Below, piece after piece: positions 13,252-23,513 of a stretch of DNA of 64,000 nucleotides (the first letter of the stretch is position 1; each line of letters starts with the position of its first letter). The notes below the pieces were generated by a model. It saw only the letters and a program-made list of their open reading frames with translations, was not told where the DNA came from and made no database searches. Source of the stretch: Symploca sp. SIO3C6 (GTDB lineage Bacteria; Cyanobacteriota; Cyanobacteriia; Cyanobacteriales; Coleofasciculaceae); the NCBI GenBank assembly GCA_010692425.1, contig JAAHHJ010000006.1, positions 1 to 64,000 of the forward strand, written 5' to 3'. Made by a program: the position numbers and the translations under genes.

Positions 13252-14103
13252 TTATTCGGGTATACCGATAACGTCGCCTGTACCTTCAATCACTTCACCA
13301 ATGGTGTAGGCGGCAATGCCGAGTGACTCAAACCAGCTCAAAGTTTGTTCTGCCTGAGTTGGCGATACAATTAGCACAAAACCAATACCCATATTAAAAG
13401 TATTAAACATCTCTTGGGCACTGACATCACCAGCTTGGGCTAGCCACTGAAAAATTGGCGGAATTACCCAGCTACTGGGTTCAATTTGAACCGATTGACC
13501 AACGCCAAGGCAGCGAGGTAGGTTTTCTGGTATGCCACCACCGGTTATGTGAGCCATAGCGCGAATCTCAATACCAGAGTCAAGGGCATCAAGAACAGGT
13601 TTGACATATATCTGAGTAGGCGTTAACAAAACTTCACCTAAACTGCTACCACCAAGCATTTTTGGACAAGTGTCCCAGTTGGAGGTGCCAGTATCTGAGG
13701 TAGACTCGCTGACAATTTTCCGCACCAAACTAAAGCCATTACTATGAACACCCTCACTTGCCAAACCAATGGCAACATCTCCCATTTGTACCTTAGAACC
13801 ATCTAGCATCTGGCTCTTTTCGACAATTCCCACACAAAATCCTGCTAAATCATACTCTCCCGGTTTATAAAAACCAGGCATTTCTGCTGTTTCTCCTCCC
13901 AGCAAAGCACAGCCAGCAAGGCGACACCCTTGGGCAATACCAGCAACCACCTGGGTTAATTGCCCAGAGTTGAGCTTGCTAGTTGCTAAGTAATCTAAGA
14001 AAAATAGAGGTTGGGCCCCAGAAGTCAAAACATCATTAACACACATTGCTACTAAGTCAATCCCTACTGTATTGTGACAATTAAGGTCTTGAGCAAGTTT
14101 GAG
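13252..14103 (-). CDS. purM: purM exon 2 (AIR synthetase, C-terminal 283 residues)
   Basis: The larger part of phosphoribosylformylglycinamidine cyclo-ligase, which makes aminoimidazole ribonucleotide in purine synthesis. Read without its start, it begins [20 protein letters not shown] and continues to the natural end [12 protein letters not shown]. Key family segments are intact, including [18 protein letters not shown] and [11 protein letters not shown]. Joined to exon 1 it gives a 347-residue protein, the usual PurM length, with the junction falling inside [13 protein letters not shown]. An internal ATG exists in exon 2, but a protein started there would lack the N-terminal ATP-grasping region and be inactive. 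Splicing of the intervening intron is therefore probably required. Confidence 0.9.
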
Positions 14104-14144
14104 ATTAAACTAAGCCACTTAGTCACCTAAGGGACTCGTCTTCA

Positions 14145-14178
14145 AAACCGGACATGAGACTTTCACCTCATCCGGCTC
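14145..14178 (-). ncRNA. Group II intron domain V
   Basis: Minus strand reads GAGCCGGATGAGGTGAAAGT then CTCATGTCCGGTTT. This is the canonical 34-base catalytic hairpin: stem GAGCCGGA pairs with TCCGGTTT, with an upper stem closed by a GAAA loop. It is followed by the short domain VI region and the intron 3' end about 40 bases on. The intact fold suggests the ribozyme is still active. Confidence 0.92.
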
Positions 14179-14219
14179 CTCAATGATTTGGCGCTTGCTA
14201 AGCGAACCTACAGCTGTGA

Positions 14220-15164
14220 TTAAGTATGAGTAAGTAACCGCATCAATTTGTTATTTTTCTGTTTACTCGCAAATACCCAGTTCTGACTTTCAAGAGTATG
14301 CCAATACTTATTTGATACCCATTTCCTGCCTTTTTTGGGATGGCGGTGCTTTGCCCATGACATCAGTTTGAGAAACACTAAATGATCTAAGCGTTTAGAT
14401 ATCTTCTTACTAACCTGTGACCAATAGTAGTTTTTCCACTCTTGAATAACTGGATTTAAACGCCGAATTAATGCCTCTTGAGGCGCTGATTTGTGGGCGT
14501 CAATAATACTAACTATTCGCCAGTAGTGTTTCTGTTGCTGATCTTTAGTTAGGGTAATCTTACTTAGAAAGCCTTGATTTTCGTCAAGTTGCTTCGCGAC
14601 AAGACAGAATTTACAAGCAGAATTTGCTGAGTGTAACCTAAGTTGTTTGTTACAATGATTACGAACTTCTGGAACACAGTCCCTAACTTCTAAATTTTGA
14701 ACTCCTTGTTCAAACTTAGCTTCCCATTCCGGCTCTATTGCTAGTTTTGCAAGGACTTGTAAAGCTCGGTTATACATTTTCACAATAGCCAGATATTTCC
14801 GACTATACCTAACTATTTTGGGCTTATCTTCCCCAATAATTGTCCAACCCTTAGAGCTGAATTTTAATTGGTTAGCTAATGTTAGACACTGCTGTGAAGA
14901 TAATGGGATATGGTGATCAGAGTAAAGTAGATGAAATTGGCTTACACTCTTCTGTTTTGTAACAGTTCTAATAACTTGTCGAACTGATAAGCACTTTGCC
15001 GACCAAGACTTGAGTAAAGTTTTCTGTAGTCTACGAACAACTTTGAAATCACCACGCTGTGAGGCTCTGTAGATGCGCTTTTGCAACTTAAAGACTACCC
15101 ATTCTAGCTTATGCCAGGGTATGTTCTTCCATTCCACCGTCGGATATTCCCGCGTTTTAGACAT
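14220..15164 (-). CDS. Degenerate group II intron maturase lacking the RT core
   Basis: A 314-residue intron-encoded protein, open from the ATG at 15164 (MSKTREYPTVEW, the usual start of this family; an upstream start at 15233 is less likely). Residues 1-60 match the RT-0 region (FKLQKRIYRASQRGD, LLKSWSAKCLSVRQV). Residues about 60-165 are a weak remnant of RT blocks 1-2 with a good match at MYNRALQVLAKLAIEPEW. RT blocks 3-7, including the catalytic YADD, are missing. The thumb/domain X is well kept (APQEALIRRLNPVIQEWKN, SKRLDHLVFLKLMSWAKRR-like segment, RKWVSNKYWHT). No HNH endonuclease domain remains. It can no longer reverse transcribe but could still help splicing. Confidence 0.85.
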   Translation of the reverse strand: MSKTREYPTVEWKNIPWHKLEWVVFKLQKRIYRASQRGDFKVVRRLQKTLLKSWSAKCLSVRQVIRTVTKQKSVSQFHLLYSDHHIPLSSQQCLTLANQLKFSSKGWTIIGEDKPKIVRYSRKYLAIVKMYNRALQVLAKLAIEPEWEAKFEQGVQNLEVRDCVPEVRNHCNKQLRLHSANSACKFCLVAKQLDENQGFLSKITLTKDQQQKHYWRIVSIIDAHKSAPQEALIRRLNPVIQEWKNYYWSQVSKKISKRLDHLVFLKLMSWAKHRHPKKGRKWVSNKYWHTLESQNWVFASKQKNNKLMRLLTHT

Positions 15165-16203
15165 ATTAATTGCTACCAAGTATCCACATTCCAAATCATC
15201 GTGAGTCTGTCTGCATATCCCAATTATTACCACTGGGCATTGGCTTATGACTCAATCTCTCCCAACACATTCATGCGGTTAGTACCTACTCTTGATAAGC
15301 TAAAACACATTTAATTTAGACAATCATCAAAAATCATCTGTTTCTTGTGTAATAGTCATGGGATGAGTGTCTCACTTGTCTAAAAACCTCATCCAAAACC
15401 TGCAAGTAAAATGTGGAACAACTTACTTTCTCAAGAGAGAAATGTGTGGGTTACTTCGTTCCTGATAACCATTGATAGAGTCCTTAGGATGATGCTCTAC
15501 ACCGGGATTATAGGAAGTGCTACTAAGCAACGAAGATACTTAGACCCTAATCCAATTTGATGTTTTAGCCTAATTACATCAGTACGTCATTACGATGCTT
15601 CAACACATCTTCGTTTTCACTATCCATAGACTCTTGCTGAAGGTTTTACCAGTTTATAATTAATTTATAAAATCAATAATTATAAATTTAATATTTACTT
15701 TATAAATTAACTTTTAGGCTACCAGTAAATCCTCCTTTGCCTCCCGCTTTAGGGATTGATGACTAGTCGCTACCCTAGGGATATTGCTTTCACCACAGCA
15801 CTAGTGGGGAGGGACTTGTTGCAAACTTAATTTATGATTTAAGCTTGTTTTCAGCGAAAGTTTACTTTTTCCTGAAACTACGGTTTTTATGTAATACTCA
15901 TTGACTTTTGAGCCAGTTTGTATATTCATAAATCCTGTTACTCACCCTCATGGCTATCAAGTTATCAGGGTATCTTGAAAGGAACTAATATCAATTAGAT
16001 ACTCGACTTGGGAGGTGTAGGAAATTCAGCAACAGTAGAAGATGTATGGAAACAGTTTTCTGTTTCCTATTCCCTAGTGCCCTTATTTTTCATTACTTTT
16101 GATGCTAGCCATCCAAGTCATAAAATGATGTATGTTCCTGTTTTAGTCCCTGTGGCTAATCCCCCAAGCTCTTATCGGCTGGTTTCTAGCCAACGAATCG
16201 CAC

Positions 16204-16395
16204 CTTCGTACCAACGCCATCTGTTCCAGATACAAGAACTGGTTCTCGATACCCTACTGGCAGCTGAAAGCAACCACTAAAACTACCGAATCCACCTAAT
16301 ACTTCAGACCGATACGTGCTTTGCACCAAGCTGCGAATTTGCTCTACAAAAGCTCGACCTGCTTCAACATCAACTCCTGCTTCTCGATAATCCAT
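16204..16395 (-). CDS. purM: purM exon 1 (AIR synthetase, N-terminal 64 residues)
   Basis: Encodes [20 protein letters not shown] to [12 protein letters not shown], the highly conserved N-terminus of PurM with the glycine-rich ATP-binding segment. The ATG at 16395 is the family's usual start. The frame is cut after Lys64 by the group II intron; reading on gives only VRFVG and a stop. It lies 98 bases downstream of the Atg8-like gene on the same strand, so the two may share a promoter. Confidence 0.92.
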
Positions 16396-16805: not shown

Positions 16806-17132
16806 AACAGCTTATCAAGAGATAGGCATCTTAGTGTAAACTTTTATTTAGCACTTTTAACATAACTTTCAGGAAATCAAAGCTGCCAACGTCAGTCTCA
16901 AGGTTATTTTTGACTAAATCTAAAATTCCAACTTTGATGAATTTTTGATGAATTTTGGGCAAAATCTTGGATATTACTGATCCCCAAACTCAAAAGTTCG
17001 TGATAGTCTGTTGCCGTTGAATGAAATAAAGCGGAAACGAAACGAGTACGATTTATCGAGGTGTGTCTTAATGTTCTCTTACAGAACTCAATAGTCAGCC
17101 TCAAAATCCCAAACACTTTTAACAACAGACGT

Positions 17133-17684
17133 ATGAATCAACGAATTTGGAGTAGTCTCACTTTTACACTCTTGACCACAGCCATTGGCACAACACCATC
17201 CCATGCTGAACCAATTGAAGCAGTTAACCAAAGTTTTGAGGCAGTTACATCTGTGGCAGGGGTACAGCAAATGCCAGCGACGGCTACCCCTATTTCAGTC
17301 CAATACTCGGCTTTATCCGATGTAGATAAGAGAGCCGATAAGCCCAAAGTAGGTCAAAGAACACCAATTCCTCTCAAGCAAACTCGAAGCCAGATGAGGG
17401 GAATTGCTTCTTGGTATGGCCCTGGCTTGCATGGCAGGCGTAGCGCTAGTGGCGAAAGATTTAACCAGCATGCGATGACAGCAGCCCACCGCAGTTTACC
17501 TTTCGGAACACACGTGCGGGTTACTAATTTGAATAATGGTCGCTCTGTCGTGGTGCGAATTAATGACCGTGGACCATTTACAAGGGGTCGTGTCATCGAC
17601 CTTTCAGCAGCAGCCGCCGGAGCCCTGAGAATGAAGCAAGCAGGTACTGCGCCTGTACAGGTAGAGATTGTAAGGGCTAAATAA
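17133..17684 (+). CDS. rlpA: RlpA-like septal ring lytic transglycosylase
   Basis: A 183-residue exported protein with a double-psi beta-barrel (DPBB) domain. I chose the ATG at 17133, which begins a normal signal peptide ([16 protein letters not shown], cleavage near SHA/EP); the open frame extends 24 codons further upstream without sense. The DPBB domain spans about residues 85-183, with [19 protein letters not shown] and [11 protein letters not shown], the latter holding the catalytic-type Asp. RlpA proteins cut glycan strands lacking peptides. No SPOR domain is present, as is usual in cyanobacterial members. It is divergent from the Atg8-like gene (327-base gap). Confidence 0.88.
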
Positions 17685-17839: not shown

Positions 17840-19066
17840 ATGAGTGACGTACCTGCAAATCATCCTCGCGCCTTATCATTGGAATTGCGAGAGAAAATTG
17901 AGTACTATCGTCAACTTGGCATTGTTGCAAATGCTGGTCCCATAGCCCATGGAAGAGGGGAAGCATTTGATTATCTTCTAGGTGAGACAACTCCTACTCC
18001 AGTTTTAGAAGATATATATACAGCTGCTGCTCTACTTCTAGAAGCTAAATATCCTGTGATTTCAGTTAATGGCAATACAGCTGTTTTAGCACCAAAGTCA
18101 CTTGTTTCACTTTCTAGAAAGATACCAGCTAAGTTGGAAGTAAATGTATTTTATGGTCGGACAGGAGAACGGGAAAAAAAGATTGCTGACTATTTGATTT
18201 CTCAAGGCGCTCCAGAGGTTATAGGTATTAATGCTGAAGCTAAAGTCCCGAATCTTCACTCAGCTAGAATGAGGGTTGATAAAAATGGAATGGCGTTAGC
18301 GGATATTGTTCTAGTTTCACTGGAAGACGGTGATAGAACTAAGGCTTTGATTGATTGGGGTAAAAAGGTAATATCTATAGACCTTAATCCTTTGTCTCGC
18401 ACTGCTGTTGATGCTACCTTAAATATCTGTGACAATGTTATTCGCGCTCTGCCTTTATTAGAAAAAGCTGTACAAGATTTACGAACAAACCAGCAAAGGA
18501 TTAAGGAGCTTACTGCTAAAGTTAACAATGATTATTCTACTGCGAGAGTTTTGAGGTTTCTGAATTATAGATTAAGAAATCTAGCTACGATTAAGAATGA
18601 ATTCTCAATTTTAGAAGCCACAGAAAAACACATCAATTTTATAAATTCTTTGACAAAATCTGTAATTGAGGAAGGATACTTTTATCCACAATCAGACGAA
18701 TTTAACACAGCAGACTACATGCGCTCGAAGCTTAATTCAGAATCTACCTATGTAAATGTCTTATTAGCTAGAAATAACCCTTGTGGTTTTATAGATGGAG
18801 ATGTTCGTGATGATCATAAATTTTATCTGAACCATCTTGCTATAGATAAAAGGTATAGAGGTTTTGGAGGGGGTAAGATTTTACTTGAGAAAGTAGAAAA
18901 GTTAGCAGTAATTAAAGATTGTCAGAAAATTGTAGTTAAAATCTTCACAAATTGTCACGCTGCACAAGCTTTATTTCTCAAGTCTGGTTACACCATTGAA
19001 GGTTTTATTGACTGCATTAAAGAAAAGCATAATTTAATAGTTATGGTTAAAAAGGTAATTTTATAG
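17840..19066 (+). CDS. Archaeal-type phosphopantothenate synthetase fused to a GNAT domain
   Basis: A 408-residue fusion. Residues about 5-230 match archaeal phosphopantothenate synthetase (4-phosphopantoate--beta-alanine ligase), which in archaea makes 4'-phosphopantothenate from phosphopantoate, beta-alanine and ATP. Hallmarks are IAHGRGEAFDYLLGET, PVISVNGNTAVLAP, EVNVFYGRTGERE, ADIVLVSLEDGDRT and VISIDLNPLSRTA. A helical linker follows (about 215-260). Residues about 260-408 are a GNAT acetyltransferase-like domain with the acetyl-CoA loop RYRGFGGGK and NCHAAQALFLKSGY. The gene is followed convergently by coaBC, and coaX and panC-cmk are close by, so a CoA role is well supported by context. 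The GNAT part might sense CoA, as PanZ does in enteric bacteria; that is inference. Confidence 0.87.
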   Translation: MSDVPANHPRALSLELREKIEYYRQLGIVANAGPIAHGRGEAFDYLLGETTPTPVLEDIYTAAALLLEAKYPVISVNGNTAVLAPKSLVSLSRKIPAKLEVNVFYGRTGEREKKIADYLISQGAPEVIGINAEAKVPNLHSARMRVDKNGMALADIVLVSLEDGDRTKALIDWGKKVISIDLNPLSRTAVDATLNICDNVIRALPLLEKAVQDLRTNQQRIKELTAKVNNDYSTARVLRFLNYRLRNLATIKNEFSILEATEKHINFINSLTKSVIEEGYFYPQSDEFNTADYMRSKLNSESTYVNVLLARNNPCGFIDGDVRDDHKFYLNHLAIDKRYRGFGGGKILLEKVEKLAVIKDCQKIVVKIFTNCHAAQALFLKSGYTIEGFIDCIKEKHNLIVMVKKVIL

Positions 19067-19200: not shown

Positions 19201-20445
19201 TCAACAAACTCTTTCCAAATGCTCCACAATCTCATAAGCAATTTCTTTTTTACCTACAATTTTTTTTGCCCCCTCTATTTGCGTCACTAGATAAGCTACC
19301 TGCTCTCCATTTACTCCAGTTTCCTCCCCTCGATTGGCTATCACAGCAGGATAACCACGCTGTAATCTGTTCAAAGCTATTTCCATCAATTGCTCATGGC
19401 TTATCCCTTCTTGGTACTTAAATATAACCATATATAGTTCAGGAAACTTGGCTTTTACTTCATCAATCACTTTCAAAGTCGGAAGCAGATTAATTGTTTT
19501 CAAGGCACCACCACTGGGTACTTTTCCCGGAATAATAGTCTCTGGCTTGTAGTCAGCTACAGCTGCAGAAAAAACCCCACAAGTATATGATTTACTATCT
19601 AATTCTCCAAGTACAAGATCCAAGTACTCATCAAAAGTTTTGGCAATTTGATGAGGCAAGTGAGCAGGGGGCATGAAGGTACTCTCCCCATGAATAAGTT
19701 TAACTTCTGCACCTCTTAAATAAAGCTCTTCAGCAATGTTTATACCCAATCTTCCTGTAAAGCGATTAGTAATTCTGCGCACATTATCAATTTCTACAGG
19801 TGTGGGGCCACCGGTTACTAGTACCGAAACCCCTTTAAGTAACGAGCGACTGACGGCTCGACATACTTGTGCCACAATTGTTGTGGAAGCAGGAAGATTG
19901 TGTTTACCATAGTCTGAGCGCGGCGAGATAATCCCTATTCCCATTGTCTTTAATTTTTGTAAGGACTCAGTGAGAATAGAGTTATGGAGACTTCCATGCA
20001 TAGTAGGGACAACCAAAATTTTGGTTTTTTCTTGTTCCATGCGCCCGATTGCTGAGGCTAATGAGGAAGTAATTACACCATCAGCAATGCCGTAACGCAT
20101 TTTGTTGATAGTGTTGTAAGTTGCTGGTGCCACTAGATAGACATCAAAAGGAGCATCATCACTAAGATGCTCTGCTGCTGCTGTCAGTTGAGTTACTACT
20201 TTATTGGTGGTACACCACTCCAGAGTATCTATAGTGGTGTATCGAAGTGCTTCTTTGGAGGCAAAAGCCACAACTTTTGCCCCTTGCCTGCGCAGTGAAC
20301 GTGCTACTTCTGGAGCTTTCATTGCTGCTATGCTACCAGTGAGCAAAAGTGCAATCCGTTTACCCTTGAGATGAGAGCCTTCGAGTAAGACATCATGATC
20401 TCCGAGGGTTGAGGGGGGTGGTGGGCTAAAATCCCAGTCACTCAT
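19201..20445 (-). CDS. coaBC: CoaBC, phosphopantothenoylcysteine synthetase/decarboxylase (archaeal-like)
   Basis: A 414-residue bifunctional enzyme joining cysteine to 4'-phosphopantothenate and decarboxylating the product. Residues about 28-200 are the flavoprotein (CoaC) half with LLLTGSIAAMKAPEVARSL and LVAPATYNTINKM. Residues about 205-410 are the CoaB half with VLVTGGPTPVEIDNVRRITN and AVADYKP. Instead of the bacterial PAMNxxMW loop it has VPTMHGSLHNS, closer to the archaeal PAMHxxMY form, and the preceding segment GVITSSLASAIG is archaeal-like too. The first 25 residues are an extra Pro-rich leader. It is convergent with the synthetase fusion (134-base gap) and divergent from coaX. Confidence 0.88.
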   Translation of the reverse strand: MSDWDFSPPPPSTLGDHDVLLEGSHLKGKRIALLLTGSIAAMKAPEVARSLRRQGAKVVAFASKEALRYTTIDTLEWCTTNKVVTQLTAAAEHLSDDAPFDVYLVAPATYNTINKMRYGIADGVITSSLASAIGRMEQEKTKILVVPTMHGSLHNSILTESLQKLKTMGIGIISPRSDYGKHNLPASTTIVAQVCRAVSRSLLKGVSVLVTGGPTPVEIDNVRRITNRFTGRLGINIAEELYLRGAEVKLIHGESTFMPPAHLPHQIAKTFDEYLDLVLGELDSKSYTCGVFSAAVADYKPETIIPGKVPSGGALKTINLLPTLKVIDEVKAKFPELYMVIFKYQEGISHEQLMEIALNRLQRGYPAVIANRGEETGVNGEQVAYLVTQIEGAKKIVGKKEIAYEIVEHLERVC

Positions 20446-20778: not shown

Positions 20779-21573
20779 TTGGACACTTACCATAACCAAA
20801 AAGCAACAAATAATAACAATAAATCAAGATATTTAGTACTTGCTGATATTGGTAATTCTGCGATTAAGCTAGGAATAGCTGACACTGAGACAGCTACAAT
20901 TCACCAGTATATAACCTGCGAAACCATCCAAGATTGCCACGAATGGTTTAAGGATATGCCATCTAGTCAGATTTTTTATTCATCTGTCAGGCATGGTTTT
21001 CAAGTCGAAGGTTTAATGCCTAATTCATCCTGGAAGATTATCTCAGCAGAGCCTTTCATTGAAATGGATGCCTTGAATTTTAAAGCAGGATTAGATCTTG
21101 GCATTGACAGAAAATTGGCTTGTTTAGCTGCTTTTCAAGTTGTAGAACAGCCCTTCTTGGTAATAACTATGGGTACTGCTACCACTTTATCCTTAGTTTT
21201 AGATAATACTTGTAAATTTTCAGTTATTTTCCCTGGTCTGGGTTTATCAGTGAAAGCCGTTAACGATAATACAAGAATTATGGTAGAACCAAATTTTGAG
21301 CATCTGGATAATCCTGCTCAAACTACTACTATACAAGATTCAGTACATGCAGGAGTACTGTTTTCTACGGTATTTGCTATCGAAGGTTGGGTTAATTACT
21401 TCCATCAACAGCAACAATATTTTCCTAAAGTGATTATTAGTGGAGGATATAGTAATTTAATATCTAAATTTATTACAACCAAGCATATTATAGTTCCTAA
21501 CTTAACGATTAAAGGGTTGCTTAAATTGTTTTTAAATAGTAAAGTCAGAAAAATTATTCAGAATCAAACCTAA
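20779..21573 (+). CDS. coaX: Type III pantothenate kinase homologue with altered active site
   Basis: A protein of up to 264 residues clearly of the CoaX family, which phosphorylates pantothenate in most bacteria. The first motif LADIGNSAIKLGI and the GIDRKLA motif are present. However, the catalytic-base motif D-x-GTATT reads ITMGTATTLSL, with Thr in place of Asp, and the Asp after TATT-x is Ser. The GGDA/GGQS motif reads SGGYSN. The only in-frame start before the first motif is a TTG at 20779. The enzyme is probably inactive on pantothenate or has a changed substrate, for example pantoate. It is divergent from coaBC and upstream of panC-cmk. Confidence 0.8.
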   Translation: MDTYHNQKATNNNNKSRYLVLADIGNSAIKLGIADTETATIHQYITCETIQDCHEWFKDMPSSQIFYSSVRHGFQVEGLMPNSSWKIISAEPFIEMDALNFKAGLDLGIDRKLACLAAFQVVEQPFLVITMGTATTLSLVLDNTCKFSVIFPGLGLSVKAVNDNTRIMVEPNFEHLDNPAQTTTIQDSVHAGVLFSTVFAIEGWVNYFHQQQQYFPKVIISGGYSNLISKFITTKHIIVPNLTIKGLLKLFLNSKVRKIIQNQT

Positions 21574-21944
21574 GTATTATAGCCATCTAAAACTGAAAAC
21601 AAACAATACATAATCTCTATCTCAAAGCCAGTATATTGTTAATTATTAACCTGAGATATTTTCAAATCTTAAATTGGCAGTAATTAGAACACAGAGGTTA
21701 TAATCTTTCAGGATGTGGAAGTCTGAACGAGAAGTTTACAGGCGAAGGCAGGAGGTAGAAGAGAGTATCTCAGATGGGGATTTAAACCCTCACTCCCTTT
21801 CAACTAGCCAGCCGGCCCCTGTGCAATTGGGTATAAAAATAAACCTTCTGCTCTGGAGCCCTGGAGTACCTTGCTTTTCCAGTTAACTTCACCCACAAAC
21901 CTTCAAACTTAGAATTCATATTTTTGGTTGATCGAGGTATAGAA

Positions 21945-23513
21945 GTGCACCTGTTCAAAACAATAGCTGGGTTGCGCTGTTACTTGCAGTTGTCTTACCA
22001 GAGCAAAACAGTAAGCCTTGTACCGCTCATGGGAGCAAGTTACGCAGAGCATATTAGTCTGATCCAGCTGTCTCGCAGAGAGAGCGAGATTGTTGTCGTT
22101 AGTATCTTTGTCAATTCACTCCTATGTGAACCCAACTCAGACTTAGGACAACATTCCTATCAATTAGATGAAGTCTATAAATTGTGTCAAAAATTAGGAG
22201 TTAATGCAGTTTTCTCTCCAACCAAAGGGGAATTTTACGGACAGGAACAGACAGTAGCTTTGGAACAAAGCCAAAATCTGATTACCCAGGTGCTATTGCC
22301 AACCACGATGACTTCAGTATTATGGAGTCAGCAACAACCAGAGTATTTTCAAAATTTGGCAACAATTTTTATCAAGTTGCTGAATATAGTGCAACCAGCA
22401 AAAGTCTATTTTAGTCAGAAAGATTATCAGCAATTGGCGATTATTCGGCGCTTGGTAGCAGACTTAAATTTGCCAGTTAAAATCGTAACCTGTCCAATTG
22501 CACGGGAGGAGTCGGGATTAGCTTGTAGCTCTAGTAATGAGCATCTAACAGAGTCACAAAAAGCACAGGCACAGATAATCTACAAATCATTGTGTAGGGT
22601 AAAACAAACTTTCCAAGCTGGGGAGCGGGATCATCATGTGCTCATAGATGCCCTCAAGTCGGAATTAACCCTCGCCAGAGAGCTTGAAGTTAAGTACATT
22701 GAGTTGGTAAATCCCACCACATTGATCCCCATAGTTCAGGTGAAAACATCTGGATTGTTAGTAGTTGCGGTAAACTTAGGTTCGACTATTCTGACTGACA
22801 ATATACTGCTGCTCAACCGCAAGCCAATTGTGGCAATCGACGGACCAGCCGGTGCTGGTAAATCTACAGTCACCAGACAGGTAGCGAAGACATTAGGACT
22901 AATGTATCTCGATACTGGTGCTATGTACAGAGCTGTAGCCTGGAGAGTTCAACAAGCGGGAATTAAACTTACTGATCAACCAGCAATTGCTGAACTAGTC
23001 AGCCAGTCTCAAATTTATCTAACTGAAGACGAGAAATCTCAAAGCGGGGTTCGCGTTTGGATTGATGGGGAGGAAGTCACCAAGGCAATTCGTTCACCAG
23101 AAGTCACTGCCAAGGTATCAGCTATCGCAGCTGTGCCAGTAGTCCGCCAGGAGCTAGTGAAGCAACAGCAGCTGTGGGGAGCTAAGGGTGGTATCGTGGT
23201 TGAAGGTCGCGATATTGGCACCAACGTCTTTCCAGATGCCGAACTCAAAATTTTCTTAACTGCCTCCGTTGCCGAAAGAGCACGTCGACGTCTACAAGAC
23301 TTCAAAGCTCAGAAACTGCCAAGCATGAGTTTAGAGCAGCTCGAACAAGAAATTCAACAGCGCGATTTTACTGACAGCACTCGTGCCATCTCTCCCTTGC
23401 AAAAAGCAGCCGATGCGATCGAAATTGAGACAGATAGCCTTAATATTGCTGAAGTAACTGAGTTAATTGTTAGTCTTTACCATCAGAGGCTCTATACCTC
23501 TGTTGAGGTGTAA
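21945..23513 (+). CDS. panC/cmk: PanC-Cmk fusion: degenerate pantothenate synthetase with intact CMP kinase
   Basis: A 522-residue fusion common in cyanobacteria. I chose the GTG at 21945 (MHLFKTIAGLRCYL); a TTG at 21924 is possible. The PanC half (about 1-290) keeps the family outline (LNIVQPAKVYFSQKDYQQL), but its active site is eroded: the usual PTMGALHxGH reads PLMGASYAEH, VNPxQF reads VNSLLC, and SSRNxYL reads SSSNEHL, so a His, a Gln and an Arg that bind substrate or ATP are gone. The Cmk half (about 295-522) is intact: DGPAGAGKST, YLDTGAMYRA and VVEGRDIGT. It should phosphorylate CMP and dCMP. PanC activity looks lost. Confidence 0.92.
   Translation: MHLFKTIAGLRCYLQLSYQSKTVSLVPLMGASYAEHISLIQLSRRESEIVVVSIFVNSLLCEPNSDLGQHSYQLDEVYKLCQKLGVNAVFSPTKGEFYGQEQTVALEQSQNLITQVLLPTTMTSVLWSQQQPEYFQNLATIFIKLLNIVQPAKVYFSQKDYQQLAIIRRLVADLNLPVKIVTCPIAREESGLACSSSNEHLTESQKAQAQIIYKSLCRVKQTFQAGERDHHVLIDALKSELTLARELEVKYIELVNPTTLIPIVQVKTSGLLVVAVNLGSTILTDNILLLNRKPIVAIDGPAGAGKSTVTRQVAKTLGLMYLDTGAMYRAVAWRVQQAGIKLTDQPAIAELVSQSQIYLTEDEKSQSGVRVWIDGEEVTKAIRSPEVTAKVSAIAAVPVVRQELVKQQQLWGAKGGIVVEGRDIGTNVFPDAELKIFLTASVAERARRRLQDFKAQKLPSMSLEQLEQEIQQRDFTDSTRAISPLQKAADAIEIETDSLNIAEVTELIVSLYHQRLYTSVEV

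Follow-up and report, generated by a model that had tools for sequence, protein, structure and literature searches.

A divergent CoaX-like gene beside an archaeal-type PPS in Symploca: a candidate pantoate kinase

The window considered here is the whole stretch of 64,000 nucleotides of Symploca sp. SIO3C6 DNA (genome G000). Between rlpA and a fused panC-cmk gene, it carries an archaeal-type phosphopantothenate synthetase (PPS) fused to a GNAT domain, a divergent CoaBC and a CoaX-like protein (Table 1). The same order (rlpA, PPS-GNAT, CoaBC on the opposite strand, the CoaX-like gene, panC-cmk) is found in the sister genome of Symploca sp. SIO2E9 (G001). Both are draft genomes, with a completeness of 97 and 98%. 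Misassembly was rejected as a source of this arrangement, which recurs in the second genome (the two contigs measure 307 kb and 19.7 kb). In three of the five relatives (G006, G014 and G007), purM, rlpA and panC-cmk stand in a row without PPS, CoaBC or the CoaX-like gene between them; in G007, one unrelated frame of 420 codons lies between rlpA and panC-cmk. Of the other two relatives, G013 has different neighbours, and panC-cmk of G012 lies next to the end of its contig. The neighbours of the ordinary coaX vary among the relatives.

Table 1. Genes, domains and residues of the block and its surroundings (positions in the window; residues numbered in the CoaX-like protein).
Feature	Position	Strand	Remarks
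purM, split by a group II intron	13252–16395	-	
Group II intron match	14104–14180		Rfam RF00029
ORF in the purM intron	14220–15233		Pfam RVT_N and maturase domain GIIM
rlpA	17061–17684	+	left flank of the block; TIGR00413, 151.3 bits
PPS (residues ~1–240) fused to GNAT (~250–408)	17840–19066	+	archaeal-type PPS; PF02006, 204.5 bits; Acetyltransf_1, 43.7 bits
GNAT domain of the fusion	18590–19066	+	
CoaBC	19201–20445	-	divergent; only PF04127 match in the genome
CoaX-like protein	20779–21573	+	264 aa from a TTG start; candidate pantoate kinase
D110 of LGIDR (L107–R111)	21106–21108	+	hGhDR proton acceptor, retained (by alignment; role according to PMC8721197)
T130 (ACT)	21166–21168	+	in place of the Asp in D-x-GTATT (PHOSPHATE2)
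F147–S148	21217–21222	+	in place of GG of the INTERFACE motif GGxIxPG; GG in all 33 comparison sequences
I185 (V in the sister genome)	21331–21333	+	in place of a Thr seen in 32 of 33 comparison sequences; a gappy part of the alignment precedes this column
PanC half of the PanC-Cmk fusion	21924–22811	+	presumed catalytic residues lost
Cmk half of the PanC-Cmk fusion	22824–23513	+	conserved

GC3 is 0.245 for PPS, 0.252 for GNAT, 0.264 for the CoaX-like gene and 0.328 for CoaBC versus 0.366–0.448 in the flanks (six genes or gene halves). Of the 35 stop-to-stop frames of at least 200 codons in the window, PPS-GNAT and the CoaX-like gene have the two lowest values; CoaBC is sixth in the same ranking, which is unremarkable. 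In the CoaBC tree, a clade with five cyanobacterial CoaBC is rejected, marginally (AU p 0.041). Branches are very long in the CoaX tree, which leaves the CoaX-like protein unplaced, a clade with cyanobacterial CoaX not being rejected (AU p 0.648); for this reason, acquisition of the CoaX-like gene is argued from its place and its GC3. We read the block of PPS-GNAT, CoaBC and the CoaX-like gene as acquired, presumably by horizontal transfer; the analysis found no donor for it.

The PPS part passes the family profiles PF02006 (204.5 bits, cut-off 26.4) and NF010324 (288.3 bits, cut-off 227), and it is 51% identical over 204 positions to the solved Thermococcus enzyme (3wdk). The cut-off of the archaeal equivalog NF041123 (300) is not reached by it (261.2) or by the sister protein (264.4), and its probable reaction is therefore taken from the wider family. 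Among 20 genomes of the family, PPS exceeds the cut-off in two, which both belong to this genus; in an even sample of 386 genomes across the phylum, it does so in one, G000 itself (three more matches are weak and below the cut-off). No match was found in plasmids, and no relative was confirmed in viral contigs. A scan of genome contigs returned the sister genome alone; this search used a single-protein query, which reaches close relatives only, so PPS may occur in other bacteria as well. The fused GNAT domain evolves faster than the PPS part (dN/dS between the two Symploca genomes 0.35 vs. 0.10).

The CoaX-like protein passes both profiles of type III pantothenate kinase (PF03309, 68.2 bits, cut-off 24.7; TIGR00671, 94 bits, cut-off 58.2), and nothing else in the 7.49 Mb assembly matches PF03309. 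PF03309 is also its only Pfam match, the GHMP kinase fold (PF00288) not being recognised in it. Upstream of motif 1, there is no in-frame ATG or GTG, and the start is TTG, as in the preliminary description; the sister protein (82–83% identical) has TTG at the same place. The predicted model (pLDDT 84.6) has its best fold match in 5b8h, the solved type III PanK of Burkholderia cenocepacia (Z 26.1, rmsd 2.2, 233 residues aligned). With the protein as a query against 57 genomes, its own included, matches were obtained in 50 and none in seven; the 48 matches outside the genus are 22–33% identical to it over the matched part. The residue comparison set (n = 33) comprised 28 cyanobacterial CoaX of these 48 and five CoaX from plasmid records, and 26 of the 28 entered the model alignment.

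Residues 130–136 read T-M-G-T-A-T-T and residue 138 is Ser, exactly as had been described at the outset. The PHOSPHATE2 Asp (D-x-GTxxT), which we take to be annotated as a monovalent-cation ligand, is thus replaced by T130 in both genomes; this column holds D in 32 of 33 comparison sequences and G in the Acinetobacter one. By alignment, Thr also occupies this position in 5b8h, and the PHOSPHATE2 Asp is therefore perhaps not defining for type III PanK. Cyanobacterial CoaX do not typically carry Asp after TATT: the position of S138 is held by Thr in all 28 compared. The preliminary description erred in taking the missing Asp for the catalytic base. According to the study of Mycoplasma CoA genes (PMC8721197), the Asp in the PAN motif hGhDR serves type III PanK as proton acceptor, and this motif is intact in the CoaX-like protein, together with the Asp of motif 1 (D23) and the Thr residues in GTATT. 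Since the catalytic hGhDR is kept, Thr occurs in 5b8h and Thr is usual after TATT in cyanobacteria, T130 and S138 alone say little about activity. Both are identical in the two genomes, which argues against sequencing error.

The INTERFACE motif GGxIxPG is changed to F-S-V-I-F-P-G in both genomes. Inexact INTERFACE motifs are known from Mycoplasma too, according to PMC8721197. Judged from the alignment, the replacement of GG by FS at 147–148 and of Thr by I/V at 185, both fixed in the two species, is more telling than T130 and S138. The motif-1 Asp before GN(S/T), present here as D23, is absent from all 28 other cyanobacterial CoaX, in which the column holds M (12), I (5), A (4), V (3) and C, T, N and E (one each); the usual cyanobacterial CoaX is atypical itself at a residue of the ATP site.

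Between G000 and G001, the CoaX-like gene has a dN/dS of 0.20 [0.13–0.33] with an intact frame in both species; the ordinary CoaX of one same-genus control pair (G006/G014) gives 0.26 [0.18–0.41]. The gene is under purifying selection and is maintained. Decay, which had been offered as one outcome for this gene, was rejected on the dN/dS value and the intact frames. Conservation in related strains had been suggested as a check, and the sister genome shares T130, S138, the TTG start and the intact frame. Between the same genomes, the two domains of CoaBC give dN/dS values of 0.10 and 0.12, and Cmk gives 0.12.

The divergent CoaBC is the sole PF04127 match in the sister genome as well, and ordinary coaBC was not found in G000 or G001 by this profile. 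Its score (106.1 bits; about 106 in both genomes) compares with 212.5–218.7 in the five relatives. With TIGR00521, the values are 219.9 (G000) and 218.7 (G001) at a cut-off of 219.7. The CoaC domain of this only CoaBC has PTMH for PxMN and a shortened Cys loop in both genomes, yet its dN/dS is 0.10; Bacteroides CoaBC likewise lacks the PxMN Asn and the Cys.

The fused PanC is the only PanC in each of the two genomes. In its GALHxGH motif, the first His is replaced by Tyr in both genomes and the second His by Tyr in G001; SSRN has become SSSN (Arg to Ser) in both. These histidines and the Arg, which we take to be the catalytic residues of pantothenate synthetase, are thus lost from the PanC half, the second His in G001. 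Of the sites invariant in the five relatives, both genomes keep 97 of 156 in PanC and 117 of 127 in Cmk; identity to the relatives is 49–55% and 69–73%, respectively, the two halves being about equally conserved among the relatives themselves. By these comparisons, the PanC half is degraded and the Cmk half kept. Some constraint on PanC remains: TIGR00018 (212.75) is still passed, with 233.3 in G000 and, barely, with 214.8 in G001, and dN/dS is 0.22 [0.15–0.32] versus 0.11 [0.05–0.20] in the control pair, the intervals overlapping.

A GHMP-type pantoate kinase or another pantothenate kinase, for which a search of the genome had been proposed, was not recognised. The GHMP kinases over the cut-off in G000 are ThrB and IspE (one further match is under the cut-off), and the translations of the two GHMP kinases in G001 look by eye like the same two enzymes. 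A second, ordinary CoaX was not found by PF03309 in G000, and the protein query gave one match in G001. CoaA (TIGR00554) was not found over the cut-off of 235 in G000, G001 or G006. Six weak CoaA matches over the three genomes (22.5–28.9 bits) were set aside as related kinases, because they also occur in a relative with ordinary CoaX. Type II PanK (PF03630) gave no match in three genomes, the controls giving no match either. PanB is present in G000, G001 and G006. At the sensitivity used, the CoaX-like protein is the only recognised candidate for the phosphorylation step.

According to PMC6650551, a paper of 2019, most archaea use pantoate kinase (PoK) and PPS instead of PS and PanK; PoK and PPS are called there exclusive to the archaea. 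The Symploca block resembles the pantoate kinase/PPS route of T. kodakarensis described there in its PPS and in that PanC could be dispensable; it differs in its bacterial host, in the fusion of PPS to GNAT, in that no GHMP pantoate kinase is recognised and in that the candidate kinase belongs to a different fold family. With type III PanK, the CoaX-like protein shares homology over the whole length, the fold, the PHOSPHATE1 Asp and hGhDR; it differs in T130, in FS for the INTERFACE GG, in I/V for T185 and in its location beside PPS in a genome whose PanC is degraded.

The reading that we somewhat favour is that an acquired cassette replaced PanC, CoaX and CoaBC, and that the CoaX-fold protein is its pantoate kinase. 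The cassette (PPS-GNAT, divergent CoaBC and divergent CoaX) would have entered between rlpA and panC-cmk. Pantoate would be phosphorylated first, by the CoaX-like protein; PPS would then join 4-phosphopantoate and beta-alanine to 4'-phosphopantothenate, which could be taken on by CoaBC. The native coaX and coaBC would have been lost, and PanC would be losing constraint while the fused Cmk is kept. What is observed are the synteny, the selection on the CoaX-like gene, the degradation of PanC and the failure to recognise other kinases at the sensitivity used. That the genus switched its essential CoA pathway to the archaeal step order, by a cassette with a CoaX-fold ASKHA pantoate kinase non-homologous to the GHMP enzyme, stands for us at an even balance. 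As a pantoate kinase, the CoaX-like protein may be grouped with the archaeal enzyme by putative activity, not by family. The repurposing suggested in the preliminary description, with pantoate kinase as an example, thus keeps its direction, to which the presence of PPS, the lack of a recognised GHMP-type kinase, the degraded PanC and the single CoaX point; the evidence for a changed kinase lies in the context, in GG to FS and in T185 to I/V, not in the missing Asp.

Several observations count against this reading. To our knowledge, no known CoaX is a pantoate kinase. CoaBC was replaced without need of a new function, and the replacement of CoaX therefore does not prove a changed function. PanC passes its profile, and its dN/dS is below 1. 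It is possible that a pantoate kinase of unrecognised type is encoded elsewhere in these draft genomes. PPS could also act on free pantoate, and this leads to the main rival, which we hold to be rather unlikely: the CoaX-like protein could still be a pantothenate kinase, its substrate being imported or made from free pantoate by PPS, which would stand in for PanC, and its substitutions would reflect divergence within the family. Both kinase profiles are passed, the PAN motif is intact and the same Thr occurs in 5b8h, whose title names a complex with pantothenate; the NCBIfam name of the PPS subfamily is 'phosphopantothenate/pantothenate synthetase'. A Methanosarcina member reportedly makes pantothenate. 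Against a pantothenate kinase speak the INTERFACE GG and T185, altered in both species, and the likeness of PPS to the Thermococcus enzyme, where PoK precedes PPS according to PMC6650551.

The CoaX-like protein might instead be a non-kinase regulator (pseudoenzyme), with an unrecognised kinase encoded elsewhere acting on pantoate or pantothenate; we regard this as improbable. The precedent is CoaX of M. tuberculosis, which is described as lacking kinase activity and as regulating the depupylation of PanB in response to pantothenate (PMC7770189, PMC12288473), so that in both cases the job of a CoaX homologue may not be ordinary PanK activity. Conserved residues are indeed lost in Symploca, but hGhDR and motif 1 keep their Asp and GTATT its Thr residues, and if the protein were a regulator, no recognised PanK or pantoate kinase would remain for the step, in contrast to M. 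tuberculosis, where CoaA exists besides CoaX. Hardly credible is a decaying relic without function: the protein is highly divergent from other cyanobacterial CoaX and its neighbour PanC is under reduced constraint, but its frame is intact in two species with a dN/dS like that of the control CoaX.

If the pantoate kinase reading is true, the route of a central cofactor pathway has changed within bacteria, in a cyanobacterial genus with PPS, and pantoate kinase has a second, unrelated origin. No description of such a system was found in the open-access literature, as covered by titles and the beginnings of abstracts, most subscription journals lying outside this scope.

On the far side of rlpA, a group II intron interrupts purM (Table 1). 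The ORF in this intron matches only the two Pfam domains listed, the central RT domain not being recognised in it. The split purM arrangement is also present in the sister genome (L033, 15531–18506).
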